A stretch of DNA of 55,591 nt, from NCBI GenBank assembly GCA_944386225.1, contig CALXAH010000023.1, positions 1 through 55,591 on the forward strand, in the 5' to 3' direction. The notes beneath the pieces are model-generated. The model did no database searches, was not told the origin of the DNA, and saw only the letters and a program-made list of their open reading frames with translations. Made by a program: the position numbers and the translations under genes. Every line of letters starts with the position of its first letter. The first letter of the stretch is position 1. Below are positions 9,066 through 29,739 of this stretch, in pieces. Origin of the DNA: an uncultured Gemmiger sp. (GTDB taxonomy: Bacteria > Bacillota > Clostridia > Oscillospirales > Ruminococcaceae).

Positions 9066-9120
9066 ATAAGATACTCCTTTCACCGGAAGAGGCACTTGAA
9101 TCGTACTGGTTTCTACAAGT

Positions 9121-12100
9121 TCACATTGTTTTCATCACATCAAGCAAATGCTGGTAGCTGTCCACCTCATGGTATTTCACCCGGCTGGTGGACATCTCAT
9201 TGAACAATTTGCGGGCGCAGTTGATTTTAGCCTGTTCGATAGGTTTAAGCTGCAGCGTCTCCATCGTGCCCTTCGTTTCTGCGATGAAGAAAATGTGCTT
9301 CACCGTTCCCTCATAGAAAGCGATGGCCCAGTCCGGGGAGTAGTTGCCCACCGGTGTGGGGATATGGAAACCCTTGGGCAGCTTGGCGTAAACACACACT
9401 TCCTCCGCGGCATCCAGGTCTTGGGCGAAACGCCGCTCCACACTTTGCTCAGCTGTGCCGTCTGTAAACACATAATCCTGAATGGCTTTTTGAGCCCGGA
9501 ACGCCTTGTCAAAGTCATGCGAGCTCTTCTCCGCAGTGAAGATCGTACTGTCGTACTGGCCTTCAATCTGGTCGTAAGAAATATGCTCGACAATCATGGT
9601 GGCCTTCTGCTCATTGATAAGCCGAATGACCTTGGTGATAAATTCTTCCGGGTTGTTCTTGAACATATAGAGCTTATCCTCCCACAGCCCTTTCAAGATC
9701 TCAACCACGGTCCGCCGGGTGAGCACCGTGCCCTGCGCGATTTTTCCCACCAGGTCGTATGTCAGCCGGCTGGTATGCGCCTGTCGCAGCGTCTGGGTAC
9801 GGGTCCGCTCACCGCCGAAGGAATCGCCGCGTCCAAGCTCATGCTCGTTCATCTCATCCTTCTGGCGGCCTACCGTCGTGGTGTATTGCAATTCTGATAC
9901 GAACAGCTTGTCGTTGATGTGGTCGACCGCTTTCCGAACCAGTTCCGCGCTATCAAACGACACGGTATACGCATACTTGTGGTTGATTTCATGCCACAGA
10001 GCCTGAAACTCCGCTTTGGCAAAGTTTTCGTTCAGCGGGTTTTCCTTCACCTTGGTCTCATGGCCGTCGGTGAACATATCCGCCAGCACCTTATCGTCGT
10101 ACACGGACTGAATCAGCTGGTGGATACCTTCCGCCATGGGCGCCAGTTCTGGAGGCAGCGGAGCAACGGTGCCCAGCTGAATGTCCGTGCGGTACTTGTC
10201 GGTGACTTTCCGCTTCATATCCACATACTGATTGCTGATAAGATAGAATTCTATCATATCCGCCATCGGCCCATCGATCAAAGTGGGCACGCCATCCACC
10301 TTGACATATTTGCCCTTGAAGTACTCGCTGGTGGCCGTGGTCGGACGGTCATACAGCTCCTGCTTGATGTCGCTCTGCAAATCCGCCACAAAATTCTTGT
10401 AACTCTCGCTGGCAATCACCGTGAGCAAATTGATGTCATGGACACGGTCACCGCAGCTCTGGGCGTCCATACGGTTGCCGCCCTGATTGACGCACAGGCG
10501 CAGGCCACGCCCTACTTCCTGGCGTTTGGCAGTCTGGCTGGCGGCGTGTTTCAGGGTGCAGATTTGGAACACGTTGGGGTTATCCCAGCCTTCCCGCAGG
10601 GCCGAGTGGGAGAAGATGAAGCGGGTGGGTTCCTCAAAGGAGAGCAGCCGCTCCTTGTTCTTCAAAATCAAATCGTAAGCGGAAATATCGTCGGAGAATT
10701 CGCTTCCGCGTTTGACCTGGCTGTCCACGCTGTGGCCGGTCTTTTTGTCGATGCTGAAATAGCCTTTGTGTACCGCAGACGGTTCGCCGCAAAGCTCCCG
10801 CAGATATTTTTGATACGGAGTGTTTTCCAGTGTGAGATGTTCGTTGAGGATGTGGAAATACTCCTCTTCAAACATCCGGCCGTATTCTCCCAGCTGCTCG
10901 TTGCCGTCCTCGTCGTACTGACGGTACTTGGCCACCTCGTCGATAAAGAACAGCGAAAGGGTTTTGATTCCCATATTAAAGTTTTTCTCTTCCTTTTCAA
11001 AATGGGACAGGATAGTCTCCCGAATCTGGATGCGGCGCATATCGGTCTCAGACACGTCGCCCCGCACTTCACCGGTGTGCAGCACCTCGCCGTTGGTGAA
11101 GGTCACAGTACCGCGCAGCGGGTCCACCTCGGAGATGGTATAGCCCCGGTACTGCTCCATGCCTTGGGAGATATGGAACAGGTTATCATCCACCCCCAGG
11201 ACGCGAGTTTCCCGGTTGATGGATTTGTTGTAACCGATCTCCATCTCGATACGGGCCATGGGGGGCTTTTTCGAAGAAAGGACGATTTGTTCCAGGAACA
11301 AATAGCTGTCGGTGCCGCGAAGGTTTTTCACCTCAAAACCTTTGACCTCGATTTTCTTGACCAGGCGCTTGTTATACGCATCCAGTGCGTCCAACACATA
11401 GACCAGGTTGTGCTGCACGGCATGGGTGGCCGAGTAGTTCAGGCTGAACAACGGATTGAAGTTCTTCAGCGCCTTCTGGGTCACGGCGCCGCCCATCTTC
11501 TGGGGCTCGTCCAGAATCAGAATAGGGCGATTGGCCTTGATAACATCAATGGGCCGCCGAGAAGCAAACTCGTCCCGCTTGGAATAGATAATGCGCGCTT
11601 CTTTGCTTTTTCCGTCCTCTTTCAGCGAAGAGGCAAATGCCTGGGTGTTGATAATCATCACCTGAATACCCGAACCGGCGGAAAAGCTGTCCAGCTGATT
11701 CAGGTTCTGGCTGTTGTAGATGAAGACGCGGGCCTTTTTCCCGTAGTACTCCATGAAATGGTCCGCCATGGTATCAAAGCTCTTCTTGACGCCTTCCCGG
11801 ATAGCGATGGAGGGCACCACCACGATGAATTTGCTCCAGCCGTAGACCTTGTTCAACTCGAACATGGTCTTGATGTACACATAGGTTTTGCCGGTACCGG
11901 TCTCCATTTCCACATCCAGGCTGCACCGACCCAGGCCTTTCACCAGCTCCGGGGACAGCTTGATGTTGTTCTCGCTTTGCAGCTTGTGGATGTTCTGCAA
12001 GAGCTGGGCGTCGCTCAGGGCCAGCTCTTCGTTTTTGAAGCCGGTATCGTCATCCAAGTCAATGTCATCCACCGAAAGCTGCCGGTCGGCAGGGATGAAG

Positions 12101-12267
12101 GACATCTGTTCCGGCTCGGTAAAGTACGGCTCCGCCGGGGCCTTGGGATGAATGCCCAAGTCCCGGATGTAGTGTATTCCCTCATGGAACCCCTGCCCGG
12201 CAAATACCTTCACGACAGCGTCCACCGCGTCGGTTTGGTATTGTTGGATTTTGAAGTTGAACTTCAT
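9121..12267 (-). CDS. res: Type III restriction endonuclease subunit (Res)
   Basis: A 1048-residue SF2 helicase-nuclease. Motif I is ETGTGKT (residues 122-128), the DEAD-like box is LILDEPQKMGG, motif III-like is NYSATH, and helicase motif VI is in QTAKRQEVGRGLRL. The C-terminal nuclease is visible as YSPDWAIAFYEG with AETKG about 20 residues later, a PD-(D/E)XK core. The start at 12267 has GAGGAG at 12275-12280. Type III enzymes cut unmethylated invading DNA with a Mod partner, here encoded just upstream with one small gene between. Length matches the family. Confidence 0.93.
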   Translation of the reverse strand: MKFNFKIQQYQTDAVDAVVKVFAGQGFHEGIHYIRDLGIHPKAPAEPYFTEPEQMSFIPADRQLSVDDIDLDDDTGFKNEELALSDAQLLQNIHKLQSENNIKLSPELVKGLGRCSLDVEMETGTGKTYVYIKTMFELNKVYGWSKFIVVVPSIAIREGVKKSFDTMADHFMEYYGKKARVFIYNSQNLNQLDSFSAGSGIQVMIINTQAFASSLKEDGKSKEARIIYSKRDEFASRRPIDVIKANRPILILDEPQKMGGAVTQKALKNFNPLFSLNYSATHAVQHNLVYVLDALDAYNKRLVKKIEVKGFEVKNLRGTDSYLFLEQIVLSSKKPPMARIEMEIGYNKSINRETRVLGVDDNLFHISQGMEQYRGYTISEVDPLRGTVTFTNGEVLHTGEVRGDVSETDMRRIQIRETILSHFEKEEKNFNMGIKTLSLFFIDEVAKYRQYDEDGNEQLGEYGRMFEEEYFHILNEHLTLENTPYQKYLRELCGEPSAVHKGYFSIDKKTGHSVDSQVKRGSEFSDDISAYDLILKNKERLLSFEEPTRFIFSHSALREGWDNPNVFQICTLKHAASQTAKRQEVGRGLRLCVNQGGNRMDAQSCGDRVHDINLLTVIASESYKNFVADLQSDIKQELYDRPTTATSEYFKGKYVKVDGVPTLIDGPMADMIEFYLISNQYVDMKRKVTDKYRTDIQLGTVAPLPPELAPMAEGIHQLIQSVYDDKVLADMFTDGHETKVKENPLNENFAKAEFQALWHEINHKYAYTVSFDSAELVRKAVDHINDKLFVSELQYTTTVGRQKDEMNEHELGRGDSFGGERTRTQTLRQAHTSRLTYDLVGKIAQGTVLTRRTVVEILKGLWEDKLYMFKNNPEEFITKVIRLINEQKATMIVEHISYDQIEGQYDSTIFTAEKSSHDFDKAFRAQKAIQDYVFTDGTAEQSVERRFAQDLDAAEEVCVYAKLPKGFHIPTPVGNYSPDWAIAFYEGTVKHIFFIAETKGTMETLQLKPIEQAKINCARKLFNEMSTSRVKYHEVDSYQHLLDVMKTM

Positions 12268-12271
12268 AAAG

Positions 12272-12751
12272 TTACTCCTCAATTAGGATGTCCAAATCGT
12301 CCATATCATCGATTACTTTGAGTTCAGGAAAAGTGGACGTGCTATAGCAATTTGCTCCACAAACAGGACACGTCGCTACGCGATAACGTTCATGCGTGTA
12401 TTCTGATTCTCTGCTTTCCGGCAAAATAGGAATTTTAATATGCTTCAGTTCCCAACAAAATGCGCATATCTCTCGCCCACTACCATTGGGGAGTTTTTCA
12501 TGATAAATAGCCCCATCCGATTTATCAATTTCATCTTCTTGCTTCTCAATATTTTGATATTGCGATAGCTTTTCTTGAGCCGATTGAAGTTCCTTTTTTA
12601 TTTCAGTCAGTTCACGCTTGAGGCCTTTCACCGATTCTCTTTTATTTCTCCGTGAATCGATCCACAACGCTACTGCCGCCGCAATCAGTGCTGAGATAAT
12701 GCCAAAAATCCCACTAAACAATACGCCGTTAGAGTTGATTAGCTCAAGCAT
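12272..12751 (-). CDS. Membrane-anchored coiled-coil/zinc-ribbon protein between mod and res
   Basis: A 159-residue protein with an N-terminal hydrophobic helix (FGIISALIAAAVALWI), then a basic stretch and a charged coiled coil (about 40-75), and a C-terminal zinc ribbon made by CAFCWEL and CPVCGANC. I do not know a named family. Its ATG shares one base with the mod stop codon (TAATG) and its stop lies four bases before the res start. It is therefore locked inside the restriction operon and probably co-translated with it. The layout suggests a membrane-tethered sensor or tether for the restriction complex, which is inference. Confidence 0.7.
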   Translation of the reverse strand: MLELINSNGVLFSGIFGIISALIAAAVALWIDSRRNKRESVKGLKRELTEIKKELQSAQEKLSQYQNIEKQEDEIDKSDGAIYHEKLPNGSGREICAFCWELKHIKIPILPESRESEYTHERYRVATCPVCGANCYSTSTFPELKVIDDMDDLDILIEE

Positions 12752-14655
12752 TACAGCACCTTCCTTACTGTTTCAGGGCTATAGGTAGAGAAAATCTGGT
12801 CGAAGTTGGCGGCGACGCTGTCGCTGGCGAGGGAGCTGTCGCGCATGACGAAGTAGTAGGGCTTCTGCTTGGCAACGGCGGCGATGGTCTCCTCGGTGAC
12901 ATTGGCATCGAAGCAGGCAATCAGGAAGTTGTCGGCCACGTTGAAAACCTTTTTGCCGGCGATTTCGGTTTGTTCGATTTTGCTGGAGAGCAGAACGCCC
13001 AGATCCAGCATCACCTGGAACAGAAGGTCTTCCGGGGTGCGGTCTTCCTTGATGTTGTCTGCCACCATATCAAACATGGAGGCGCTGTATTCGCTCGGGG
13101 TGTAGTATACCTCCTCCATATTGGTGGTATCGCATTTGAGCACACGGAAGCCCACATCCAACTCCATGGTGCCCAGCGGATTTTCCTCCTTGATTTTGGC
13201 ACCGGCACGGCGGATGCGTTCTTTCCCGATTTCGCAGATGTTTTTATATCCCGCTTTATGGGCCTCGCTTTTTTCATCGGTGGGCTCTGGCAACTGCACC
13301 ATTATGAATTTGCGGTTACCGCCGTCAAGACAATTCTGTCTAATAACTGCATCGGCTGTTGTTGATGAGCCAGAGAAAAAATCAAGAACTATAAAGTCCA
13401 ATCCATTTGCAGCCGAAACGATTGTTCGAATCAGGTCAACACTTTTTGGGTTTTCAAAAGGCAAGTCGTATTCTTTTGCAATTTGTGATACCTCAATATC
13501 CGTCCAATTGCTTGTCCTTAGCGAAGTGTCTTTAGGCGGGACCCAGTATTGAACGCCACCATTTTTTCCATACCCTTCTGGAATTCTTCTTATAAACCGA
13601 AGCTTTTCTCCTGTTTTCTCCCAGTATTCTTCTAAACTCATTTCCGACGAATAAGTATCCATATAAGTTCTGTAATTTTCCACTGCTTTGTCGGCTAATT
13701 CCTTTTGCCAGCGCCACTGTCCCGTAGTTGGAGTAAAGCCCAGCAGCTCATAGCGCATCGTCGGTCTATCTGCATTGCTCCAAAAAACATTCCACGATCC
13801 CTTTTCTGGCACATCACTTTTTTTCATCTGCAGTGGAGCGAAAAGGAATTCTTGAGACTTAGAGTAGACATAGACGTACTCATATCCTACATTAAAGCTC
13901 TTTAAGCCGTTATCTGCAAATTGAACATTTAAGCTTTTGATGCGCCTTCTTACCAACAACTGGTTTCGGTAATTTTCAGCTCCAAATAGTTCATCGCATA
14001 TCTGTTTCATGCGACTGCCTTCATTTTCATCAATGCTAATGAAAATGACTCCATCTTCCGTCAGCAAATCTTTTGCCAATTTCAGCCGCGGATAAATCAT
14101 ATTCAGCCAATCAGTATGGAACCGGCCATTGCTCTCGGTATTCGTCACAAGGCGGTTGCCCTCCTCGTCGTACTGGCCGCTGTTCGCCAGATACTCCTGG
14201 GTGCTCTGGGCAAAATCGTCCTCATACACAAAGTCGTTGCCGGTATTATAGGGCGGGTCGATGTAAATCATCTTGATTTTGCCCAGGTAGGTCTCCTGCA
14301 ACAGCTTCAGCACTTCCAGGTTGTCGCCCTCGATATACAGATTCTCGGAATCAAAGCCGCCGGGGGTGCCATCCTTGCCCACGCTTTCCGCCGGGCAAGG
14401 ACGCAGAGTTTTGGAAATAGGCGCGTTAGCCAGCAGCACCGACTTCTTTTTGTCCGGCCAGGTGAACTGATACCGCTCGTCCTTGCCTTCCACTACGGTG
14501 GCGCTGATCTCCTGCATCAGCACATCCTTATCAATCGCGCGCACCACCACACCGTTTTCGTCCACAGTCTCCGTCACCGCATTGGGAAACAACGCCGCCA
14601 GCTTTCTAAAATTTTCATCCGCCTTATTCGGCGTGTGCATTTTCAGCTTGTCCAT
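12751..14655 (-). CDS. mod: Type III DNA methyltransferase (Mod)
   Basis: A 634-residue beta-class amino-methyltransferase: motif IV IDPPYNTGND (132-141) precedes the target-recognition region (about 220-400), and motif I LDFFSGSSTTAD (424-435) follows, the order typical of type III Mod. It methylates adenine in one strand of an asymmetric site, protecting host DNA and giving specificity to Res. The start codon immediately follows the TAA of the AbiH downstream frame, with GAGGG as ribosome site. The target sequence cannot be read from the protein. Confidence 0.93.
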   Translation of the reverse strand: MDKLKMHTPNKADENFRKLAALFPNAVTETVDENGVVVRAIDKDVLMQEISATVVEGKDERYQFTWPDKKKSVLLANAPISKTLRPCPAESVGKDGTPGGFDSENLYIEGDNLEVLKLLQETYLGKIKMIYIDPPYNTGNDFVYEDDFAQSTQEYLANSGQYDEEGNRLVTNTESNGRFHTDWLNMIYPRLKLAKDLLTEDGVIFISIDENEGSRMKQICDELFGAENYRNQLLVRRRIKSLNVQFADNGLKSFNVGYEYVYVYSKSQEFLFAPLQMKKSDVPEKGSWNVFWSNADRPTMRYELLGFTPTTGQWRWQKELADKAVENYRTYMDTYSSEMSLEEYWEKTGEKLRFIRRIPEGYGKNGGVQYWVPPKDTSLRTSNWTDIEVSQIAKEYDLPFENPKSVDLIRTIVSAANGLDFIVLDFFSGSSTTADAVIRQNCLDGGNRKFIMVQLPEPTDEKSEAHKAGYKNICEIGKERIRRAGAKIKEENPLGTMELDVGFRVLKCDTTNMEEVYYTPSEYSASMFDMVADNIKEDRTPEDLLFQVMLDLGVLLSSKIEQTEIAGKKVFNVADNFLIACFDANVTEETIAAVAKQKPYYFVMRDSSLASDSVAANFDQIFSTYSPETVRKVL

Positions 14656-15713
14656 TTATACAGCCCTCACAAGTTTTGACTCTTTATCTTCTATGTGATT
14701 CCCAGGAGATACGCTTATACCCTCCAGGGAATAAATATTAGAATTGATTATCACTTGAATTTGTCGTTTCATTTTCTGCAAAGCGGCCTCGTCGCATCGC
14801 CCTTGAGTTGAAAAGAAATCGCGCGCATCATTAGCAATCCGCACTTTTTTGTCGCTGATACAGGCTTTCCGCCTTCTATATATCTACACAAAATCAGTCT
14901 ATTTTGGGGGCTCGTCAAAAGCCATTTCATGATGTATTCCCACCACGTTTGGTCAGAATCCCCCCAAGAAAGCCCATAAAGAAGGAGGTAGCGGCTTCTA
15001 TTTATGATGTTACAAAAATCATCTATTCTTCTCTCACCCAGTGCTTTATTCAAATTGGATTTGACCAAATATGTAGCAAGCTCTGGATTTTTACTATTTG
15101 ATGAGTCGCCAAGCTGATTCATGGAGTTAATGCCCAAGATCAAATCGCCATTTAATGTCCCGTGTATATGTAACGGCATCTTTATTTCGTCGGCATAAGT
15201 TGTATGGGCAGTTGTATGACTCGAAAAAGGGCTAAATCTGCTTTTGCACAGCTCAATCAATCTGCTCAAAGTATTCGTGTAATTAAAGTTGACAAATTGG
15301 TAAACGATAGGCTCTTTGAGATTCCGGGAAAGCGACTCGTATTCTAAGCGCCACTCCATGTTCAACTCTTTATAAAAATTAATTGTTTTTGCTTTAAAAC
15401 TATCCGCTACAACGGATTCCGAAGAAAATTTTAACCGTGCCTCTTGCCCTTTTAAATATGTAACAAGGGCGTCTTCCATTTTCTCTTTACTATTAAGGAA
15501 ACTTGAAATTTCAGAGTCCTTTAACGAGGCCGCAAAATCTGCCAGTCCCATTTCTAAGTCGGACCACTTTGGGTAATCCGCCTTTATTTCTGTAGCCAGA
15601 AAGTCATCTTTTGTGGATTCCAATCCACAATAATATGAGTAGAAATCAGTGTATAAAGTATTGAGCCCAAAATTCCTGTCAAAACCATTACCAATCAGAA
15701 ATGTGACAACCAT
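14656..15713 (-). pseudogene. abiH: AbiH-family abortive infection protein, interrupted by a frameshift
   Basis: The first 290 codons encode a typical AbiH protein: FLIGNGFDRNFGLNTLYTDF at the start, FVNFNYTNTLSRL, then LPLHIHGTLNG-like and LYGLSWGDSDQTW motifs. The frame then runs off into 24 unrelated residues ending at 14769. The -1 frame continues a plausible AbiH tail (RIANDARDFFSTQGRCD) and stops at 14656, directly abutting the mod start. That tight junction argues the longer, 352-residue product is the original one. The switch point can be placed on A-AAA-AAG at 14850-14844. The gene is a frameshift mutant, a sequencing error or a programmed -1 frameshift. AbiH proteins block phage growth by an unknown mechanism; the N-terminal GNGFD motif is nucleotide-binding-like. 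Confidence 0.82.
14844..14850 (-). other. Slippery heptamer A-AAA-AAG in abiH
   Basis: In the zero frame the codons are ACA AAA AAG, so the heptamer is in the exact register of the dnaX-type -1 slippery site. Slipping back one base leads into GTG CGG ATT, the frame that carries the conserved-looking AbiH tail. I see no convincing stem-loop at the usual distance downstream, nor an upstream Shine-Dalgarno stimulator. An A7-to-A6 deletion explains the same data. Confidence 0.4.
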
Positions 15714-15722: not shown

Positions 15723-16316
15723 TTATCTGTTTTTTAATTCATTTATCCTCTGCACCAGTTCAAACTTTTTCTTCGGCTGCTTCTCCGCCCGGGCTAATTT
15801 TTCCAGCCGGGCGATTTCTTTTTCCAGTTTTGCGCGCTGCTCGTCCTGGGCTATCTGCTGCTCCAGCGTGTTGCCGCTTTGCACCTGGATCCCGCCAACT
15901 TGGGTGACCACATTCTCCCAAACGGCGTCCATGGTGAGCCCCTTGATATTCAAGGTCAAAGCAGCTGGGTCGCTCCAGTGCGTTTGCAGCAGTTTTGTAT
16001 GGTATACCGCCAGCTTCGACTGCCCCTCATGCTCCAGAAGGAGCACCAGCTTCTGGGGAATCAGCCGGAAAAGGGCTATCAAGGTCTTTTCGCTGAATTC
16101 TTTTCGTTTCAGCGTGACCTGCAGGACGAAAAATGTCTGTACCGTTTCGCCGGGGGCCAGGTTCAGTTTGGCAGCAGACACTTCATTGACGATCACAAGG
16201 CGGGAGATATCCGCGTCCACTTTCGCCCTCTCCGCCGCACTCATCTGGAACTTGGCATAGATAGCGGTCTTTGGAAGGGGCTTGCTCAACTCAGTATTTT
16301 TAGGCAATCCCAACAT
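15723..16316 (-). CDS. DUF4391 protein of the restriction/helicase operon
   Basis: A 197-residue protein recognised as DUF4391: an N-terminal alpha/beta part (IPQKLVLLLEHEGQSKLAVYH) and a C-terminal charged coiled coil (about 145-195, AKLEKEIARLEKLARAEKQ). DUF4391 genes regularly lie between SNF2-type helicases and type III-like methyltransferases in defence loci. The biochemical role is unknown to me; an adaptor holding helicase and methyltransferase together would fit. The gene starts 19 bases after the helicase gene and ends nine before abiH. Confidence 0.85.
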   Translation of the reverse strand: MLGLPKNTELSKPLPKTAIYAKFQMSAAERAKVDADISRLVIVNEVSAAKLNLAPGETVQTFFVLQVTLKRKEFSEKTLIALFRLIPQKLVLLLEHEGQSKLAVYHTKLLQTHWSDPAALTLNIKGLTMDAVWENVVTQVGGIQVQSGNTLEQQIAQDEQRAKLEKEIARLEKLARAEKQPKKKFELVQRINELKNR

Positions 16317-16335: not shown

Positions 16336-19300
16336 TCAGAAGCGAATCACCTGGCACGGGATACCCTGGGCCTCGGCACACTCAATCATATTTTTGGCAC
16401 CGGCGGATTGGCCGTCCCAGAACACGATGGCAGCGTCCGCCAGCTGCGCCATCTGGGCGTTGCGCTTTACCGCGGCGGCTTTGCCGAAGTAATGCCAGTT
16501 GGCGGGGTACTCCTCCAGCGCATAGCCCTTTTGCCGGGCATACTGTTCGCCCAGGCGGTCAGCTCCCCTGGCCGTGCCGCTGACGATGGTGACCGGTCGC
16601 TTGGGCGCCAATTGCTTCAGGAAGTCATCCACGGCGCCCGCCAGGGCCGGATAGTCTTCAAAGCTGCGGCTGCCGGCAATCACCAGTCGGAACGCATCCT
16701 TTTTGCCGGCCTTTTGCGGCTCGTCCCGAACGACCAGAAAACAAATCAGCTCAAAGTCATCCAGGCCCTTGATGGTGTTTTCCAGAAAGCTGATTTGCTC
16801 GCCGCCCAAAAAGCTGCTGATGTCATTCTCGTCCTTGACCTGGATGATGGAGGAGATGGCGTCGCCCAGCAGGCGGGAAAAGTCTTCCATGTTCCGGCCA
16901 TCGTGGGTCTCTTTGTTGAACGCCCGATACAGCTCCGGGATGGGTTGGGTCTTGCCTTTGCAGAGGTAGCGCATCTTGTCCAGCATCTGCTTGGGGGAAA
17001 GATGGTCGCAGACGATGTCGCCCTCCTTGCTGATATAGACCATGTAGAAGGGATGCAGCCGGTTTTGGTTGTCAATGTTCACGCTGCCGGAACGGTTTTT
17101 CAGCACGAAAACCACACCGGCGGGCATATCGGGAGCCGAGGCCGTCACCGAATGCAGGCCAAAGGGAGCGTGCTCGATATCGGGGTGCTCCTTCATATAG
17201 TCCAGCAAGTCCAGACGGAACTCGTTCAGCCCCAGGTCCATGATGGAGATGCCGCTGGACATTTCCTCAATATCCACCACTTCTTCCTGCAAGCGGCGTA
17301 ACTGGGCCTTGCGGTATTCCAGGTCGGTCTTTTCTTCTTCGCTGAGGATATTGTCATCGCCGGTGGCAGTCATATCCACGATTTTCATGCGGGTCTCCAC
17401 CTTGGCCTTCAGGTCGATGTATTCATCCAGCGTCACATCCGGCCAGAAGTTGACCAGCTGTATGCAGGTATTTTTGCTGCCGATACGGTCGATTCGGCCG
17501 AACCGCTGGATAATGCGCACGGGATTCCAATGGATGTCGTAGTTGATGAGGTAATCGCAGTCCTGCAGGTTCTGGCCTTCCGAGATGCAGTCGGTGGCAA
17601 TGAGGATATCGATGTTCCGGTCATCGCCGGGCATGAGCAGGTGTTTGTCCTTGGAGATGGGAGAAAAGCAGGTCAGCACAGTGTTCAAATCACACCGCAA
17701 TTTGGGCACAGTTGTACGGCCCTCCACATTGCCGGACACCATGGCAGTATGCAGGCCAAAGGTCTCCAGCATATAGGGGCTTACATTATCGTACAGATAT
17801 TCCGCCGTGTCGGCAAAGGCGGTAAAAATTATCACTTTTCGGTTGCCGGGGTTGATGGGGCGCTCCACCTTATTCTTCAGCACGTCCAGCAACGTTTGCA
17901 GTTTACAGTCGTACTGGGGCGTAATGTCCCCCACCATCAGGGTGAGCAGCTCCAGCACATCCCGGTCTTTGACCAGGCTTGCACGCCAGGACAAATAGTC
18001 CATGTCACCGATTTCGATTTTGACCTTGCGGCCAAAGGTGAAGAGGTCGCCCTCACCCTGGTCATCGGCGTCAAACTGGTCCTCCAAGTTGGTAATATCG
18101 GTGAGAGTCAGCGTATCTCCCGCATTTTTGTCGTAGGAGTCGATACGCGCAATAGTGTCATCGATCAAAGCCAAGATGCGCTTGAGGGTCAAATTGAAAG
18201 AATAGACGGAGCTCTCCATCCGCTTCATCAAGTTGATGGCGGTCAGGCGACGAATGCCCTGCTCTCGGTTGGCTTGGGTAAACCCTACATTGACCTTGTT
18301 GTCCTCGTACAGCTCCGCGTACTTCTCTACTTTGCTTCCCAGAATAAAGTGAGTAGGCGTGTAGATAGTCAGTGTCAGCAGCATGAGCTGCTCAAAAATC
18401 TGGTTGTAGTTGATGGCCTCTTTCAGGTCTGTCAGTTTCGGACGCAGAGAAATCGGCTTAAGGCGAGTTGGGAAGGTCCCGATTGCGCTGGTATCGTAGT
18501 ATTTTTGAATGTGCTTGCGGGACCGGGCGATGGTAACAGAGTCCAGCACTTCAAAGAAGTCAAAGTCCAACAGCTTGAGGAGATTGGCGGTAGTGCGCTC
18601 CTCGGTCGGCCACTTGCTCCAGGTATTGAACGCCTGCTGCGCATTCCGAAAAATGTCATCAATGCTGCGAGTCGTGTTCAGCTTTTCGTCAATAGCGGCA
18701 GAATCGCCCTCATAAGCAAGCGCCAGCTGATTTTTCAGGTCGTTGAACCGATTGTTCACCGGTGTAGCAGACAGCATAAGGACCTTTGTCTTGACGCCTG
18801 TGCGAATCACCTTGTTGAGCAGCTTCAGGTAACGGTTTTCCTTTTCATCCTCCTCACCGGACAATTTGCCACCATTCCGGAAATTGTGGGATTCGTCGAT
18901 GACTACAAGGTCATAGTTGCCCCAATTCAGGCGGCCCAAGTCAAGGCCATTGGAAGCACCATATGTACGGTTCAAATCGGTATGGTACAGCACATCATAC
19001 CGCAAGCGGTCTGCTGCGATGGGATTGTTGACATAGTTGTCCTTATAGGTGTTCCAGTTGTTTGCCAGCTTTTTCGGACAGAGCACCAGAACAGATTTGT
19101 TGCGGTTCTCATAATATTTGATAACGGCCAGGGCCGTGAATGTCTTGCCCAAACCTACACTGTCGGCCAGGATACAGCCATTGTATTTTTCCAGTTTATT
19201 GATGATGGCCAGCACAGCATCACGCTGGAAGTTATAGAGCATCCCCCAAATCTTGCTCTGCTTGAAGCCGGTCGCCTCGTTGGGGAGCACGTCTTCGGAG

Positions 19301-19968
19301 ATGTCTTCCAAAAACTCATTGAAGATATTATACAGAGTAACAAAATAGATGAAGTCAGGCGCGTTTTCGGCATAGGCAGCGGAAATGTTTTCGATTACCT
19401 CATCGGTGACATCCTGCAGCTTCTTCTCGTCGCTCCAAAGGCTGTCAAACAGCTCCATATATAGGTCAGCGAACGGCGCTTCGGTTTTTTGCACAATGTT
19501 ATACGCATAGTTGCCCCGCTCGCAACCAAGGTCCACGGTGGTGAAACCGTTGACCGGCATATAGTTTTTGTCATCCAGATTGATGAAGCCTGGCATGTTC
19601 TCGCTGGTCACATTGGACTTGAAGGTGACCTTTCGGCGTATCCATTCCGCGCATTCTTTGGCAATGGCCTTCTGGGTCAGCTCGTTGCGAAGCTTGATTT
19701 CAAATTCTGTACCATACAGACTGCGTTCACGATTCAAGCGAGGAATATAAAACTCCCGCTTCTCCTTTTTTGCTTTTTCCGTTATAAATGTGGGCGACGT
19801 GAAGATGAACCGGAGTTCCTCGATTTTTTGCAGCTCAGCTTTCAATTCCTGAAAAGCATAGATAGAAAAGCAGGCAGCCGCAATCGACAAACGGCTCCCC
19901 GCTTTCAGTTCTGCAGCCAAATCATCCCTCAGTGTTTTCGTGGTATTGTTGATGAGTTCCATCTTCAC
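16336..19968 (-). CDS. SNF2-type helicase with N-terminal PLD-like region and C-terminal SLOG (DUF2493) domain
   Basis: A 1210-residue protein. Residues 1-60 resemble the phospholipase-D-like start of defence helicases (LSIAAACFSIYAFQEL, then RFIFTSPTF). The helicase has Walker A ADSVGLGKT (about 265), DESH box VVIDESHNFRNG, motif III MLSATPVNN, and motifs V/VI ATDCISEGQNLQ and RIIQRFGRIDRIGS. From about residue 1085 a separate Rossmann-like domain follows: VIAGSRSFEDY, IVSGTARGADRLGEQYA and ADAAIVFWDGQSAGAKNMIE, the DUF2493/YspA branch of SLOG domains, which bind nucleotide-derived ligands. It is the first large gene after the RHH regulator (51 bases). The start may be the GTG at 19968 or the ATG at 19962. 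The fusion suggests motor activity gated by a nucleotide signal. Confidence 0.9.
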   Translation of the reverse strand: MKMELINNTTKTLRDDLAAELKAGSRLSIAAACFSIYAFQELKAELQKIEELRFIFTSPTFITEKAKKEKREFYIPRLNRERSLYGTEFEIKLRNELTQKAIAKECAEWIRRKVTFKSNVTSENMPGFINLDDKNYMPVNGFTTVDLGCERGNYAYNIVQKTEAPFADLYMELFDSLWSDEKKLQDVTDEVIENISAAYAENAPDFIYFVTLYNIFNEFLEDISEDVLPNEATGFKQSKIWGMLYNFQRDAVLAIINKLEKYNGCILADSVGLGKTFTALAVIKYYENRNKSVLVLCPKKLANNWNTYKDNYVNNPIAADRLRYDVLYHTDLNRTYGASNGLDLGRLNWGNYDLVVIDESHNFRNGGKLSGEEDEKENRYLKLLNKVIRTGVKTKVLMLSATPVNNRFNDLKNQLALAYEGDSAAIDEKLNTTRSIDDIFRNAQQAFNTWSKWPTEERTTANLLKLLDFDFFEVLDSVTIARSRKHIQKYYDTSAIGTFPTRLKPISLRPKLTDLKEAINYNQIFEQLMLLTLTIYTPTHFILGSKVEKYAELYEDNKVNVGFTQANREQGIRRLTAINLMKRMESSVYSFNLTLKRILALIDDTIARIDSYDKNAGDTLTLTDITNLEDQFDADDQGEGDLFTFGRKVKIEIGDMDYLSWRASLVKDRDVLELLTLMVGDITPQYDCKLQTLLDVLKNKVERPINPGNRKVIIFTAFADTAEYLYDNVSPYMLETFGLHTAMVSGNVEGRTTVPKLRCDLNTVLTCFSPISKDKHLLMPGDDRNIDILIATDCISEGQNLQDCDYLINYDIHWNPVRIIQRFGRIDRIGSKNTCIQLVNFWPDVTLDEYIDLKAKVETRMKIVDMTATGDDNILSEEEKTDLEYRKAQLRRLQEEVVDIEEMSSGISIMDLGLNEFRLDLLDYMKEHPDIEHAPFGLHSVTASAPDMPAGVVFVLKNRSGSVNIDNQNRLHPFYMVYISKEGDIVCDHLSPKQMLDKMRYLCKGKTQPIPELYRAFNKETHDGRNMEDFSRLLGDAISSIIQVKDENDISSFLGGEQISFLENTIKGLDDFELICFLVVRDEPQKAGKKDAFRLVIAGSRSFEDYPALAGAVDDFLKQLAPKRPVTIVSGTARGADRLGEQYARQKGYALEEYPANWHYFGKAAAVKRNAQMAQLADAAIVFWDGQSAGAKNMIECAEAQGIPCQVIRF

Positions 19969-20019: not shown

Positions 20020-20196
20020 TTACTTTTCCCCTAAATCTTCTTCTATCAGATCCACGATATAGCCATTGATGCTCTTCTGAAGTTCATCGGCGCGAGCCTG
20101 GATTTTTTCTTTTTGTCCCTTTTTCACACGGAGGCGAATGTCTTCATACGCTTTTTTATTGTAGCGTTCTTTCACTTCAGCAGAAGTCTTACCCAT
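20020..20196 (-). CDS. Ribbon-helix-helix transcriptional regulator
   Basis: A 58-residue protein of Arc/CopG-like RHH pattern: a basic strand (YEDIRLRVKKGQKEKI) followed by two helices (QARADELQKSINGYIVDLIEEDL). Such proteins bind DNA as dimers and often cooperate on direct repeats. The ATG at 20196 follows GGGAG. It is the first gene of the defence operon. Three 12-base direct repeats lie 60-150 bases upstream, between it and the divergent integrase unit, making it the likely repressor of both directions. It could alternatively be an antitoxin-like protein for a neighbour. Confidence 0.8.
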   Translation of the reverse strand: MGKTSAEVKERYNKKAYEDIRLRVKKGQKEKIQARADELQKSINGYIVDLIEEDLGEK

Positions 20197-20235
20197 ATGC
20201 AATCACTCCCTTTTCGTTGGAATAATAGTAAATTT

Positions 20236-20241
20236 AGTATA
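20236..20241 (-). promoter_or_regulatory. -10 box of the RHH/defence operon
   Basis: TATACT on the minus strand, 40 bases before the RHH start codon. The -35 position 17-18 bases upstream falls inside the first GGTACCAGTATG repeat and is a poor match, so the promoter is weak or controlled. Confidence 0.45.
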
Positions 20242-20257
20242 TCATACCTTCTATCGC

Positions 20258-20346
20258 GGTACCAGTATGCAATATGCACAAACGCGGTCATGATGGTACC
20301 AGTATGTTTCGTAAAATCAGCCAATTTACATGGTGGTACCAGTATG
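20258..20346 (+). repeat. Three GGTACCAGTATG iterons
   Basis: Exact 12-base direct copies at 20258-20269, 20295-20306 and 20335-20346, spaced 37 and 40 bases apart (near-integral helical turns at 3.5 to 4). The first overlaps the -35 position of the leftward defence operon; the third lies in the spacer of a rightward promoter. They are the expected kind of operator for the neighbouring RHH protein, and could also serve as recombinase arm-type sites. Confidence 0.85.
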
Positions 20347-20353
20347 ATATAAT
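20325..20353 (+). promoter_or_regulatory. Promoter of the excisionase-integrase unit
   Basis: TTTACA (20325-20330) and TATAAT (20348-20353), 17-base spacer, on the plus strand. The third iteron fills positions 5-16 of the spacer, so a protein bound there would block the promoter. Confidence 0.6.
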
Positions 20354-20412
20354 TTAACCATGGACAGCGGGACACGCTCCCATCATTCAAACAAAACCGG
20401 AGGTACACACTT

Positions 20413-20712
20413 ATGAAAAGCACCGCTATCACGCATAGCCACTTCATCTATGAGACCGACAACATCCCCGACCACCGGAGCCGGCGGTTCGGCTGCTGCC
20501 CTTGCCTGCTGGCCGTGAGGACGCTTTCGCTGCTCCAACAAAAAAGCCGTGTCCGAGCGGCAACTCAGGCACGGCAAGCGCAAAATGAATCCGACACAAA
20601 TCAAAGCCATTCTGCCCTTTCATCATACCATGCCAGCCTGTGCGAAACAAGCCGGAAAGGGCAGTTCTCGATAAATCCGCACCACACACCTTTTAAAGAA
20701 AAGGAGAACTGA
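20413..20712 (+). CDS. Possible 99-residue leader protein before the excisionase
   Basis: An open frame preceded by GGAGGT nine bases before its ATG and ending one base before the excisionase ATG, whose ribosome site lies in its last codons. That spacing is typical of translational coupling. The composition (many Ser, His, Arg; RSRRFGCCPCLLAV) does not resemble a known family. It may be an untranslated leader with an incidental frame. A short GCCGTG/CACGGC inverted repeat lies within it near 20545-20575. Confidence 0.35.
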   Translation: MKSTAITHSHFIYETDNIPDHRSRRFGCCPCLLAVRTLSLLQQKSRVRAATQARQAQNESDTNQSHSALSSYHASLCETSRKGQFSINPHHTPFKEKEN

Positions 20713-20713
20713 C

Positions 20714-20953
20714 ATGAAAAAGGATATCTCGTTTGAAAAGAACTACCTCACCGTGGCGGATGTGAAGAGCTTCCTCTGCATCAGCACCACGGCGGCCTAC
20801 GAGCTCACCCACCGCAAGGACTTCCCCGTCTGCCGGTTGGGATCGTCCATCCGCATCCCCACCCAGCTGTTCCTGGCCTGGGTGGACAAGCACACCCATG
20901 TCCCGGCGGACCTGGCCGCGGTGCGCCAGGAGGTGGGCCTCCATGTCGGGTAA
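20714..20953 (+). CDS. xis: Excisionase (HTH, AlpA/MerR-like)
   Basis: A 79-residue protein with a winged-helix/HTH pattern typical of excisionases: YLTVADVKSFLCISTTAAYEL then PVCRLGSSIRIPTQLFLAWV. AAAGGAG lies eight bases upstream. It overlaps the integrase start by 11 bases, a common xis-int arrangement. It should bind near the attachment site and direct the integrase toward excision. Confidence 0.85.
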   Translation: MKKDISFEKNYLTVADVKSFLCISTTAAYELTHRKDFPVCRLGSSIRIPTQLFLAWVDKHTHVPADLAAVRQEVGLHVG

Positions 20954-22058
20954 GCGCGGCAAGGGGGAGGGTTCGGTCCATCGGCTCCCCAGCGGCAGCT
21001 GGCAGAGCCAAATCATGGACGGCTACACCGACGAGGGCAAGCGGCACATCGTGAGCTTCACCGCCCCCACCCGGGCGGAAGCTCTTGCCCGGATGCGGGA
21101 GTATCTTCTGCACAAGCAGGAGGCCGCCGAGCAGGAAACGCCCGAAGTGCCGCTGTTCGCGGAATATGCCCAGCGCTGGTACGAGGCCTACCGCTCCCAG
21201 GTGGAGGAGTCCACCTATGCCAACTACCGCTACACCCTGAAGCTGCTGGACAGCGCCTTCGGCAGCCTGCCCTTGAGCGACATCAAGGTGGCGCAGGTGA
21301 ACCAGTTCATCAACGGGCTGGCGGCCAAGGGCTACTCCTCTTCCCAAATCAACAAGTGCCGGTCCATGCTGATTCAAATCCTGGACGTGGCCGAGGCGGA
21401 CGACCTGGTGGTGAAGAACTACGCCCGGCGGGCCTTCCGCACCACCAAGCAGCTGAGCAAGGAGAAAAAGGCCCACGCCAAGGATGCGTTCTCGGTGGAG
21501 GAGACCGAGCGGCTCCTGACCGGCCTGCCGGACACGCTGCTGGGCAACAGCATCCGCCTGATGCTCGTCTCCGGCCTGCGGCTGCAGGAGCTGCTGGCCC
21601 TGACTCCCCGGGACATCGCCGAGGACGGCAGCTGGGTGCGGGTGGACAAGGCGGTGAAGATGGTGGACGGCGTTCCCAAGTTGGGCGACCCCAAAAGTTA
21701 CACCAGCCGGCGGGTCGTTCCCATCGCGCCCAAGTATCGCCACATCCCGCTCTGGCTGCGGGAAAACGGCGGGCAGGCCTTTCTCTGGTGCGCCCCGCGC
21801 CGGGAGAGCCTGCTCTACGCCACCTACACGGTGCGCCGCAAATACTACCGGCTGCTGGAGAAATACCCGGAGGTGCGTCTCCTGTCGCCCCACTGCTGCC
21901 GCCACACCTATGTGACGCTGCTGCAGCGCCAGGGCGTGCCCATGGAGACCATCGCCCGGCTCACCGGCCACACCGACATCAAGACCACCGGAAACTACCT
22001 GCACATCTCCGGTGACACCCTGGCCAGCGCCGTGACCGCGCTGGAGAGCCTGATTTGA
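20943..22058 (+). CDS. int: Tyrosine recombinase (integrase)
   Basis: A 371-residue integrase from the ATG at 20943, inside the excisionase gene; a longer in-frame start at 20898 reads through excisionase codons and is unlikely. It has an N-terminal arm-binding region with the Tn916-like GKGEGSVHRLPSGSW opening, a SAM-like core-binding domain (about 70-160) and a complete catalytic set: Arg in SGLRLQEL, Lys in KSYTSRRVV, HCCRH, GHTDIKTT and Tyr in NYLH. It should integrate and excise the element that carries the neighbouring defence genes. Confidence 0.93.
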   Translation: MSGKRGKGEGSVHRLPSGSWQSQIMDGYTDEGKRHIVSFTAPTRAEALARMREYLLHKQEAAEQETPEVPLFAEYAQRWYEAYRSQVEESTYANYRYTLKLLDSAFGSLPLSDIKVAQVNQFINGLAAKGYSSSQINKCRSMLIQILDVAEADDLVVKNYARRAFRTTKQLSKEKKAHAKDAFSVEETERLLTGLPDTLLGNSIRLMLVSGLRLQELLALTPRDIAEDGSWVRVDKAVKMVDGVPKLGDPKSYTSRRVVPIAPKYRHIPLWLRENGGQAFLWCAPRRESLLYATYTVRRKYYRLLEKYPEVRLLSPHCCRHTYVTLLQRQGVPMETIARLTGHTDIKTTGNYLHISGDTLASAVTALESLI

Positions 22059-23896: not shown

Positions 23897-23921
23897 AATT
23901 GTACTGATAATAAGAAACATC

Positions 23922-25269: not shown

Positions 25270-25293
25270 AACCATTTTGCCCTCAAAATGGTT
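25270..25293. repeat. Inverted repeat upstream of the recombinase-like pair
   Basis: Perfect 10-base arms AACCATTTTG / CAAAATGGTT around CCCT, 45 bases before the first recombinase-like gene. Candidate operator or recombination core. Otherwise 25148-25338 holds nothing that I can identify. Confidence 0.4.
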
Positions 25294-25338
25294 CATTCCT
25301 TCTGGACAACAGGACATAAGAAAGGAGGCTACCGCGCT

Positions 25339-26964
25339 ATGTCCCACTCACACAATGACTTTCCTATCGCTGGATATTGGGGCCGGAAAAAGCCACATCC
25401 CAAAGCGGAGAAAATTGAACTCATAATCACGTTGATAAACCCGTCGACCAAAAAACCCTACACCTATGCGCAAATGCTATCAGACCTCGTACAGCGCCAA
25501 ATGCAATATCCCGGTCTGGCTCCACTGCTGGAGCCGTGGATCAACAAGCTTATCCCCAAGGCCCAGGAAAAGCCCAACACGGATTTCACCATGTACTGCA
25601 GTGGCCGCACCGCAGAACTCGCCGAGGCGCGTTTCCGCAAGCTTCGCTGGGCTGAATTGGAATCCTTGGCTAAACTCTTGTTCCGACCTCTGTATGAACG
25701 GAACTTGAAATATGGCAATGTAACAATATCCGACTTTGTTGATTATCAAGCTGAGTCACTTTATGCTGGAGATACACCCGATACGCGTGTTCGCCTATTG
25801 GGCTGCCTGAAAAACTATATTCTGCCCGAGATCGGGAAGACAAAGTTGAACGCATTGGATAGTGACCGCCAGAATAAGTCCTTGAAGGCTATTAAACGAA
25901 AACTTCAAAGCTGTTCCGATCCTGCCGGTAAATCCACTTGCGGGTACGTGAAGAGGGCATATCTGGGGCTCATCCGAGCAATCGAAAGCAGTGGCTGGAA
26001 GGGCTGCTTTGCCGGATTACATTTGGCTGATATGCTCAATCACTCTTCCAGCCAAAACCATCGCATTATCAACAGCTGCCGGGTCGACCATCTGGACGAC
26101 GCTCAACGTGCGGGGCTGTTTCAGCTGCTTTCCGCACCAGAGCGTTTGTACGATTTGTTCTGGATATCGCTGCTCTACTCTGGCATGGATCCGGCGGACA
26201 TCGCCGGCCAGACCTATGGGGATATTGAAGAACTTACCTTGCAAGACGGGAACCTCTGCTACACCATCCTGATCAGCCGCCGGGTACGCAAGCTGAACGA
26301 CCGGTATTCGACGTTGCAGGCTACCAATGAGGATTTTCCCGTCCAAAAGCTCCGCCGTGCTGTGCTTGCTCCCTGGGTCGGGGACGTGCTGCTGCATCGG
26401 CTGGCGCAGCTGCATAGTCTTGGCTTTTCCGATGACCAGATCCGGGAAATGCGCCTTACCGCCGAAAAGCCAGGCAACGCCATCATTGGTCCGGAGGAAC
26501 TCTCCAAGCGCCTGCAGCCGCTTTTGAAGCAGGCAGGCATTCCAAATGTTTCTCCTATCCGCACCGACAAAAAAGGTCGTGTTTATCGACAAGTCGTCAC
26601 GGAGGATATAAAGTTGCTTGTGCGGGACGCTCGATATCTGTCAAAGCAGTGCGGCGCCGATGATGTGATGCAGCACGCCATGTTTGGCGATGCCTGGTCG
26701 GATACAGATGAGGCGGCGTATCTGGACCTGTTGGGTGACCAATACGCTCTGGCCCGTTGGCAGCGGCTGCGGCGCTGGTCTCCGTTTACTTCCTCCCTTC
26801 TACATGATGCAGGTGAAGGCCATCTCTCCGGCTATACCCATGTGCCTGCTCGCCACATTCTACGGGTGGACAACACCACAGACCATCCTGTCACTCTGGC
26901 CCTGTCTGCGCCCTATGGCCTCAATGTGTACTGGGCCCACAGTAAAAAAGAAAGGAACACTTAA
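25339..26964 (+). CDS. Recombinase-like protein lacking catalytic residues
   Basis: A 541-residue protein from the ATG at 25339, which has AAAGGAGG 11 bases upstream. The middle shows a tyrosine-recombinase-like pattern (FWISLLYSGMDPADIAGQTYGDIEEL), but the catalytic Arg of the SGxR motif is absent, and no H-x-x-R box or terminal Tyr is visible. It shares its last base with the next gene's start (TAATG), so the two are made together. It may be a structural partner for that protein or a DNA-binding relative. The family call is tentative. Confidence 0.5.
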   Translation: MSHSHNDFPIAGYWGRKKPHPKAEKIELIITLINPSTKKPYTYAQMLSDLVQRQMQYPGLAPLLEPWINKLIPKAQEKPNTDFTMYCSGRTAELAEARFRKLRWAELESLAKLLFRPLYERNLKYGNVTISDFVDYQAESLYAGDTPDTRVRLLGCLKNYILPEIGKTKLNALDSDRQNKSLKAIKRKLQSCSDPAGKSTCGYVKRAYLGLIRAIESSGWKGCFAGLHLADMLNHSSSQNHRIINSCRVDHLDDAQRAGLFQLLSAPERLYDLFWISLLYSGMDPADIAGQTYGDIEELTLQDGNLCYTILISRRVRKLNDRYSTLQATNEDFPVQKLRRAVLAPWVGDVLLHRLAQLHSLGFSDDQIREMRLTAEKPGNAIIGPEELSKRLQPLLKQAGIPNVSPIRTDKKGRVYRQVVTEDIKLLVRDARYLSKQCGADDVMQHAMFGDAWSDTDEAAYLDLLGDQYALARWQRLRRWSPFTSSLLHDAGEGHLSGYTHVPARHILRVDNTTDHPVTLALSAPYGLNVYWAHSKKERNT

Positions 26965-28643
26965 TGAAGAAAAAATCATCTCCACCCAAAGAGTTTTCGT
27001 ATCAAAGCGTGAACTTCCACATTCGCTATGCATACCCATCCGCAGACAAACATAAAGACGCCCCCTGCCGCGGCCTCATCAACCCGCTGGATCCGATGAC
27101 CGGCAAATGCCTTACAAAACGGCAATTGTCCCTCAAGGAAAGTGATGCGCCGGTCAATCATATTGTACATGGTAAAGACCCTTGGGACATGTACAACAAA
27201 CGAGAAGCAGAAGCTAGCTATCTAGTTTCCATCATGGCACAGTGTGGTCTACTTGGCAGCGTTGCCGCAACAAATCCTGCCGAAACCGCCGATCTTGCCC
27301 AACTGGCCCGAAATTACAAACAGACTCTGTTTGACATTCACCCCAAATGGGCGAAGTCGACGGTGAAAGGCTACAGCTATCAGTACGACAAATTGGTAGA
27401 AGAGATGGCCGGATTGCGTGCTGGTGACCTGGACGAGACAGCTTACAGACAGCTTCAGAAAAAAATCTGCCGCAGTGCAGCGAAAGACGCCACCAAAAGC
27501 CAAGCCTGGACATACGGTGAGACCCCTCCTTCCTCTGCCCGGACACGATTGAGCCTACTGTGTGAACTAATCCGCCGCCTAAAGGCGGAAGGTGCGGCCA
27601 TTCCAGTGGTCCCTTTCCCGTACAATGGAAAACCCTCCCGCCAGGAGCTGCTTCTGGATCGGACTGACCACGCCCGCGCGATTCCAGATGAAATTCTTCG
27701 CACCATCTGTGCTGACCCGATGATTCGTGGACAAGCGGAAATCTTGGCGGATGCCGGTCTGCGAATCAGTGAATGCACCGGCCTTTTGTTCGACTCTTTG
27801 CGCTGGCTGGACACCTCGCAGGGAAGGATGTATTATCTGAACATCAGCGGACAAGTTGAGGATGATGGCAAGCGCACCGAGCTTCCCAAGACCAAGGATT
27901 CCTACCGGGCTGTGCCCCTTTCCAGGGAACTGGGAGAAGCTCTTATGCGCTATCGGCAAGAGATGGAAGCCAAATATGGCGACCTTTCTCTTCGTCTTAT
28001 GTGCGGACACCCCGACGGAAACGGGTTTGACGACAGCCCCGCTAGGATAGTTGCCTGGAAAAATCAGATCCGTGAGCGAATCTTGACACTGCTTCGCGCC
28101 CCTGCCGCCTTTCAGGCGGTCGCTGCAGAGCGCGTTTATGTTTTTGACAAGAAAGCCCAGGATGCTGAATTGTACCGTGAGCTTGTCTGCCATTCCTGGC
28201 GCCGCAATTTCTGCACCCGAATGTACTGCTCTAGTGGGCTGGATTCGTCGGAAATCCATCAGCGGATGGGCCATGTCTATAAGCCTATCTCTTCGAAAAC
28301 CGCTACAGGCCTCAATCCAACAGAGTTACGTCAAATGTGTCTGCAACAGCATGTCAGCCCCTCGCTGTATCATTCGGCAAACCCTCTTCGGTATACCGCA
28401 GAGGGGCCTTTCCAGGCCACCGAGGTGCCTGCCTGTGCTATTGAGCTGGAATTGAAACCGGGTGAATCGATTGAGCTCACGGTGGAGGATACCGAACCGG
28501 GTACCGTGACCCACATTTCCGGCGAGGGGCTAATTGTTCATCGCCTGCGCCGAGATGAACGCCGCAATGTAACCTACGATTACGGGCTACTGCCAGCCGC
28601 AGAAACTAACACCGTTGTGAAAAAGCGCAAGCTGTTGGGATAA
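26964..28643 (+). CDS. Tyrosine-recombinase-like protein with partial active site
   Basis: A 559-residue protein. The central-to-late part carries recombinase motifs: LADAGLRISECTGL (Arg), KTKDSYRAVPL (Lys), CHSWRRNFCTRMY (H-x-x-R) and RMGHVYKP (Gly-His). At the position expected for the nucleophile the sequence reads SSKTATGLN, without a canonical Tyr. Tyr in GHVYK is too close to the His for the usual spacing. Residues 470-559 form an added beta-rich tail. With the preceding gene it forms a translationally coupled pair that may be a two-component recombinase or a domesticated regulator. Confidence 0.6.
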   Translation: MKKKSSPPKEFSYQSVNFHIRYAYPSADKHKDAPCRGLINPLDPMTGKCLTKRQLSLKESDAPVNHIVHGKDPWDMYNKREAEASYLVSIMAQCGLLGSVAATNPAETADLAQLARNYKQTLFDIHPKWAKSTVKGYSYQYDKLVEEMAGLRAGDLDETAYRQLQKKICRSAAKDATKSQAWTYGETPPSSARTRLSLLCELIRRLKAEGAAIPVVPFPYNGKPSRQELLLDRTDHARAIPDEILRTICADPMIRGQAEILADAGLRISECTGLLFDSLRWLDTSQGRMYYLNISGQVEDDGKRTELPKTKDSYRAVPLSRELGEALMRYRQEMEAKYGDLSLRLMCGHPDGNGFDDSPARIVAWKNQIRERILTLLRAPAAFQAVAAERVYVFDKKAQDAELYRELVCHSWRRNFCTRMYCSSGLDSSEIHQRMGHVYKPISSKTATGLNPTELRQMCLQQHVSPSLYHSANPLRYTAEGPFQATEVPACAIELELKPGESIELTVEDTEPGTVTHISGEGLIVHRLRRDERRNVTYDYGLLPAAETNTVVKKRKLLG

Positions 28644-29662: not shown

Positions 29663-29739
29663 TGGTCCGAGTGGCGAGAGTCGAACTCACGGCCTCTTGA
29701 ACCCCATTCAAGCGCGCTACCAAACTGCGCTACACCCGG
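29663..29739 (-). tRNA. tRNA-Pro (anticodon GGG), CCA encoded
   Basis: A 77-base cloverleaf on the minus strand: acceptor CCGGGTG/CACTCGG, D arm GCGC-loop-GCGC, anticodon arm CTTGA-ATGGGGT-TCAAG giving GGG, T arm GTGAG-TTCGACT-CTCGC, discriminator A and genomic CCA at 29665-29663. Its 3' end faces the integrase-bearing region to the left, making it a plausible attachment site. Confidence 0.95.

Follow-up and report, generated by a model that had tools for sequence, protein, structure and literature searches.

A control region in DNA from an uncultured Gemmiger sp. (contig CALXAH010000023.1, positions 1 to 55,591; this whole 55,591-nt stretch is called the window) probably works as the immunity-like switch of an integrated element. 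A small RHH protein would silence the right arm of the element and limit the promoter from which it and a set of defence genes are predicted to be expressed, and the cassette that does this appears to be exchangeable. The proposal starts from what can be read in the sequence: repeats, their overlap with promoters, co-variation of RHH proteins with operators and exchange of the cassette between elements. The features are collected in Table 1.

Table 1. Features of the window discussed in the text.
Feature	Position	Strand	Remark
McrC	5266..6315	-	
McrB-like AAA protein	6282..8444	-	
HEPN (pEK499_p136)	8514..9095	-	
Type III restriction subunit	9121..12282	-	
Small ORF without family assignment	12272..12751	-	match under cut-off
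Type III methyltransferase	12751..14655	-	
AbiH	14769..15713	-	
DUF4391	15723..16316	-	
SNF2-type helicase, C-terminal SLOG (YAcAr) domain	16336..19968	-	
RHH repressor gene (predicted), 58 aa, Arc/AmrZ-like	20020..20196	-	profile search of relatives
Leftward -10 TATACT (predicted), extended -10 TG	20236..20241	-	TGA in front, read by eye
Operator site 3 (putative)	20253..20268		at -35 position of RHH/defence promoter; least symmetric of the operators
Oriented box TTGTGCA (TGCACAA on +)	20275..20281	-	conserved, between sites 2 and 3
Operator site 2 (putative)	20290..20305		repeat and symmetry analysis
Rightward promoter TTTACA-17-TATAAT (predicted)	20325..20353	+	TG before -10
Operator site 1 (putative)	20330..20345		within spacer of rightward promoter
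Leader ORF	20413..20712	+	between promoter and xis; similar in elements with readable leader
xis-like HTH_17 protein	20714..20953	+	weak TIGR01764
Tyrosine recombinase (int)	20898..22058	+	
GHKL/HATPase ORF, 502 aa	22083..23591	+	element family marker; named by sequence inspection
Second recombinase-like protein (YR2)	25288..26964	+	no Pfam match; conserved beside YR3
Tyrosine recombinase (YR3)	26964..28643	+	
tRNA-Pro(GGG)	29663..29739	-	presumed right-end attachment gene

Between the leftward RHH gene and the rightward leader-xis-int-GHKL unit, GGTACCAGTATG is present as three exact copies (20258-20269, 20295-20306 and 20335-20346), spaced 37 and 40 nt from start to start. An earlier sequence-only reading had reported this spacing, and an exact search confirmed it: in the 3.38-Mb assembly there were three forward matches, all in the control region, no reverse match and no match to the control pattern. 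That reading called the repeats iterons. A better description of each copy is an imperfect palindrome of 16 bp around GGTACC (symmetric pairs: 5/8 at site 3, 6/8 at site 2 and 6/8 at site 1), for which the term operator is more fitting.

The overlaps with the two promoters described in the same reading were also found. The rightward promoter (TTTACA at 20325, a 17-nt spacer, TATAAT at 20348-20353) matches the consensus at 11 of 12 positions and was the top-scoring promoter-like site in a scan of 5000-20420 (15.4 kb); the third GGTACCAGTATG repeat falls in its spacer. The first repeat overlies the leftward -35 position, though the bases there are TGGTAC, with no match to the -35 consensus. The scan that gave the 11-of-12 match listed no leftward promoter.

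The RHH protein was placed by a profile of 18 relatives, which matched the solved chains of Arc (E 9e-4) and AmrZ (E 0.0019, with the strand aligned), suggesting these two as its nearest solved relatives. Similarity to Arc/MetJ-type repressors extends over the strand and both helices. PHROGs gave weak matches to Arc-like repressor families (E 3e-4 to 4e-3), and the only Pfam match, to a NikA-like family, was under the cut-off. Residues D19, R21 and R23 align (with an inferred chain-number offset) with AmrZ Lys18, Val20 and Arg22, strand residues described as contacting DNA (PMC3325190). In the AlphaFold monomer (8 sequences, pLDDT 78.7) helices were modelled at 28-38 and 43-54, with a helix at 5-23 where the strand is expected; 12 of the 18 Foldseek matches of this model were RHH proteins judged by name, and no match reached E<=0.001. 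Members of the family are encoded by Flavonifractor phages Castelnaud and Chenonceau, where they are annotated as 'Arc-like repressor'.

At E<=1e-10, the RHH profile had matches in 49 of the 394 genomes sampled from the order. From 113 distinct members, three with less than 200 bp upstream were dropped, and the remaining 110 were tested for three mutually similar 14-mers in their upstream regions, against 100 dinucleotide shuffles per region. Such a triple was present upstream of 59/110 RHH relatives at p<=0.01 (74/110 at p<=0.05) vs. 8/195 control upstream regions, taken from loci of the same kinds, at p<=0.01, two of these eight being one further operator region in locus L034. At a triple-repeat score of at least 36 the figures were 50/110 vs. 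2/195. In 51/110 relatives no upstream triple was found at p<=0.01, and the triples of L068 and L072 reached only p 0.05 and 0.04. The L034 region, which came to light through the control set, is a second triple-repeat region (about 5004-7326) with TATATAGTCCTATATA-like sites and a TTTGTGCA box.

For sites 1 and 2 the spacings clustered at 35-40 nt, for sites 2 and 3 at 27-32 or 37 nt. In 10 loci scanned, operators were confined to the control region, bar one three-mismatch match in L072. The TTGTGCA box was exact in 26 of 58 site 2-site 3 intervals (shuffles: mean 2.0, maximum 6), in reverse orientation in two intervals, and in the site 1-2 interval in one. Because it is constant while the operators vary, it is probably the site of another factor.

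The operator core follows the residues at the DNA-contacting positions of the strand. GGTACC was the core in 10/12 RHH members with D-R-R (the exceptions, L033 and L034, are without it), TGCGCA in 8/10 and TGTGCA in 1/10 with x-N-x, TGTACA in 3/3 with S-R-V and 3/3 with R-P-D, and ACCGGT in 2/2 with R-E-R; the ungapped centring of the cores may be wrong for some sets. Where two members had 50% or more identity outside the strand, the similarity of their cores was 0.94 when both contacts were shared (61 pairs) and 0.34 when neither was (136 pairs). Below 50% identity it was 0.53 vs. 0.29, with permutation p<=5e-4 in both classes. This co-variation is the pattern of Arc/MetJ-type repressors, whose strand residues set the operator sequence; when each of the 23 clusters was reduced to one representative, leaving 7 pairs with both contacts in common, it was not significant (p=0.09).

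Natural chimeras were also found. The RHH protein of L073 resembles the window's in its N-terminal half and that of L067/L068 in its C-terminal half, and its operator is the window's, while the operator of L067 is TATTGGTACCAATA and that of L068 a TACTG-TCGTC-type site. The RHH proteins of L090 and L068 have the N-terminal half and the operator type in common and differ in the C-terminal half. As natural N-terminal swaps bring the operator type along, the chimeras are the most direct evidence for a match between strand and operator. Among the elements described below, none keeps the repeats without the RHH gene: GGTACC was absent from 5/5 RHH-less control regions (L063-L066, L070). Together with the upstream triples of the relatives and the co-variation of strand and core, this bears out the earlier assignment of the repeats to the RHH protein, which very probably reads them.

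In the proposed switch, RHH dimers would bind the three palindromic operators. Occupancy of site 1, within the rightward promoter spacer, would shut off leader-xis-int-GHKL, and through site 3, which overlaps the RHH promoter at its -35 position, RHH would limit itself (autorepression). In the silent element, expression of RHH and of the downstream defence genes would thus be self-limited, like that of cI and rexAB from PRM in lambda. If active RHH were lost, the rightward unit would be released first, and output of the leftward unit would rise. The parts of this scheme that we infer are RHH binding and repression, transcription of the defence genes together with RHH, the order of occupancy, the inducing signal and the role in mobility. 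Most defence genes are carried by mobile elements, but it is seldom clear how defence stays on in a carrier that is silent; the present short region may plausibly account for both, keeping the defence on and the carrier silent.

The left arm consists of ten co-directional ORFs led by RHH, with gaps of at most 113 nt. The nine genes behind RHH are mostly restriction/abortive-infection genes. The layout suggests one operon; a terminator scan of 5000-20420 gave 16 terminator-like matches, five on the minus strand and none between 18221 and 20420. The RHH-led ten-gene defence operon of the sequence-only reading stands as a gene series, and its single transcript is a prediction from the layout. The best PADLOC match of the SNF2-SLOG protein was candidate C3a139 'HKD+Snf2'.

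Other elements with an RHH-type control region differ in this arm. Co-directional restriction/defence genes lie directly behind RHH in 3/12 of them (the window, L026 and L027, the last two being alike). In L067 and L188, TetR-like and DUF genes follow (no PADLOC match at 1e-10 in L067), in L189 McrBC is present beyond an opposed ORF, and in L073 type I genes converge on RHH. No restriction/defence genes were recognised among the ORFs behind RHH in L068, L072, L077 and L090, and in L069 the sequence ends there. The earlier claim of one repressor for both arms is consistent with the coverage of both promoters and with a fixed rightward register (see below), but its defence side applies directly to only these three regions.

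According to the sequence-only reading, RHH holds the defence operon and xis-int both off in the silent element, and its loss arms the cell and frees the element. One site does lie on the leftward -35 position and another fills the rightward spacer, and a leftward promoter that lacks a -35 could be fully blocked. We nevertheless consider this model unlikely. Of 59 sets, 39 had the closer fit to the symmetric consensus at site 1 and 14 at site 3 (p=4e-4), and site 1 was the more palindromic in 35 and the less palindromic in 15 (p=0.006). Site 3, at the RHH/defence promoter, thus tends to be the weaker operator on average, which makes a self-limited but running promoter at least as likely as one that is held off. 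Moreover, a repressor that fully shuts its own gene cannot maintain itself, and the HTH-led relatives described below have the same layout, as does lambda cI-rex, whose exclusion genes are active in the silent state. Loss of RHH could still arm the cell and free the element, but the weaker operator at the defence promoter suggests self-limited expression before that point.

The geometry of the control region bears on the proposed switch as well. In all 13 control regions compared, 10 nt separate the start of the divergent -10 from the centre of site 1 (nine by script; L025, L068, L072 and L077 by eye, where the script picked another hexamer), and the RHH -10 lies 18-20 nt from the site 3 centre in 10/13 (five by script, five by eye; exceptions L068, L072 and L090), the regions compared including the near-copies L026/L027, L067/L188, L068/L072 and L073/L189.

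The RHH/operator module is found in many other contexts. Neighbours were scanned for 48 of 52 divergent and 41 of 48 downstream ORFs, the rest, largely near-copies, being left out. Sixteen of the 48 divergent neighbours match early phage families, namely phrog_434, 6244 and 1956 (RecE-like), and two are integrases. The 41 downstream neighbours include three Uma2, two Zeta and two SNF2 proteins, and one each of HicA, PemK, ParE, Abi_2, PIN and Ku. This variety of contexts, and the toxin families among the downstream neighbours, would suit a mere antitoxin-like autoregulator whose overlap with the rightward promoter is incidental. We regard this as very improbable, since the 10-nt distance to the divergent -10 persists across several different operator sequences, and the operator with the best match to the consensus lies at the divergent promoter.

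In the right arm, a stretch of the leader ORF (DNIPDHRSRRFGCCPC in the window version) is common to most typed elements (tblastn), and the ORF had no match in Pfam, PHROGs, NCBIfam or PADLOC. The GHKL ORF matched in Pfam only by a NucS-like C-terminal stretch, under the cut-off, and is followed in the rightward series by a DUF6809 gene. Near the latter there is a 124-nt direct repeat (23775-23898 and 24968-25091, 88% identical), perhaps a partial duplication. GHKL-marked elements were present in 11/396 genomes of the family, and separate scans of two genera gave 4/7 and 8/35 genomes; in the order sample, 5/394 genomes had a GHKL match, two of them outside the family at 30-31% identity.

Seventeen control regions were typed, 12 as RHH-type (window, L026, L027, L067, L068, L069, L072, L073, L077, L090, L188 and L189) and five as HTH-type. 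L091 and L095, with RHH near the GHKL gene, were left out of this count, and further GHKL places at a contig end or rearrangement (L071/L097, L074, L075, L076, L078, L079, L092-L094 and L096) were not typed. All five RHH-less regions have a small HTH gene instead, with other repeats. The HTH gene of L063 is followed by co-directional type I restriction genes, and that of L064 by co-directional type III/helicase restriction genes. The arrangement of a repressor-led defence arm facing xis-int-GHKL therefore outlasts a change of repressor class. Xis-int is not a constant target: L067, L068, L072 and L073, which come from two genomes of one genus, lack it and have GHKL after the leader. We read RHH, operators and promoters as one exchangeable, immunity-like control cassette, and nature provides controls in the form of five repressor/operator sets attached to one right arm.

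Although the repeats are direct and lie beside xis-int, their reading as integrase/excisionase arm sites or replication iterons was rejected as extremely improbable, because L063, L065 and L066 have an int with 91% identity to that of the window, and L070 one with 78%, all without GGTACC repeats, the four loci without xis-int have triple repeats, and no Rep family was found among 20 window ORFs scanned. The exact two-repeat pattern occurred in 1/61 relatives, the window itself, and in one viral contig stretch, L039. Checked with the RHH profile only, L039 gave a best match (E 6e-4) to a C-terminal stretch about 2.7 kb away, and its two-repeat match looks like chance.

Distant divergent RHH/GHKL pairs were seen in L190 (4745-7035) and L095 (10327-12367), with GHKL 28% and 31% identical. 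By eye, both have a similar leader stretch between RHH and GHKL, possibly an RNA element. In a faecal 'Bacteriophage sp.' record, RHH is divergent from a 28% identical GHKL relative.

The genome of the window holds a second element, L065 (G000:C44), with GHKL 92% identical and an HTH cassette instead of RHH. Cassette types per genome were A1 and B in G000, B, A2 and A3 in G177, B, A3 and A1 in G344, and A2, A2 and A1 in G246 (the type of G246:C37, whose contig starts there, was taken from the RHH N-terminus). A strict rule of one specificity per genome was not supported (same-type pairs within genomes: 1/10 vs. 1.83 expected by shuffling, P=0.42). Tentatively, the cassette might be an interchangeable 'immunity type' of chromosomal defence islands. 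Recombination of N-terminal half and operators, or replacement by an HTH set, would give each island its own specificity; near-identical islands would coexist without cross-repression or cross-mobilisation, and upkeep of the restriction genes would be coupled to silence of the island's own mobility. If so, several near-identical islands could share one genome.

The right end of the element adjoins a tRNA gene. In the window, YR2, YR3 and a Fic gene run up to tRNA-Pro (25288-29739). The adjoining gene is tRNA-Pro(GGG) in the window, L068, L069, L071, L079 and L089 (on the same contig as L026) and tRNA-Ala(GGC) in L063, L064 and L065; the two tRNAs have the anticodon arm CTTGAATGGNNTTCAAGAGG in common. 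In 10/18 loci scanned there was no tRNA in the sequence covered, and a search of the window for a left-end copy of the tRNA sequence found none. The presence of YR2 and YR3 beside the tRNA weakens the reading of the integrase unit as the mobility function.

Among known systems, the layout is closest in form to lambda cI-rexAB, a repressor-led operon with exclusion genes that is active in the silent state (PMC11077077). As in the lambda account given there, three operators lie between divergent promoters, the repressor gene comes first with exclusion/defence genes behind it, and the excision functions are on the other side (PMC11077077). The repressors differ: that of lambda is an HTH protein with a cleavable C-terminal domain, and the 58-aa RHH protein is not related to CI, although it may work alike. 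The 37-40 bp between sites, the lack of Cro and the leader-xis-int-GHKL make-up of the rightward unit also set the window apart. In the immI region of phage P22, the RHH repressors Mnt and Arc act at divergent promoters, and their N-terminal strand, which is swappable, sets operator specificity. Unlike Mnt/Arc, the present element carries restriction genes and three operators, and its swaps are natural. AmrZ of Pseudomonas is described as an RHH protein that represses its own gene through two sites, with three strand residues reading the DNA (PMC3325190); it differs from the window RHH in being a longer, chromosomal regulator with other operators.

A defence gene tied to the control of element induction is described for Tha/Ith of S. 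aureus prophages, where the defence protein is inhibited by a small antisense protein that used to be regarded as an excisionase (PMC11087260). In the present element, by contrast, a shared transcriptional switch is proposed. The WYL-domain regulators BrxR and CapW are repressors linked to defence genes. Their fold differs from RHH, and the abstracts on them give no report of a facing integrase unit. Searches of the open-access PMC literature showed no report of an RHH switch between defence and integrase genes. The parts are of known kinds, namely RHH repressors and repressor-led operons facing excision genes. What appears to be new is the proposed switch itself, run by an RHH protein and exchangeable, which sits between restriction genes and xis-int and shows natural swaps of specificity. 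These N-terminal swaps give an RHH recognition code (D-R-R/GGTACC, x-N-x/TGCGCA), by which the operators of uncharacterised Arc-like repressors become predictable and testable.
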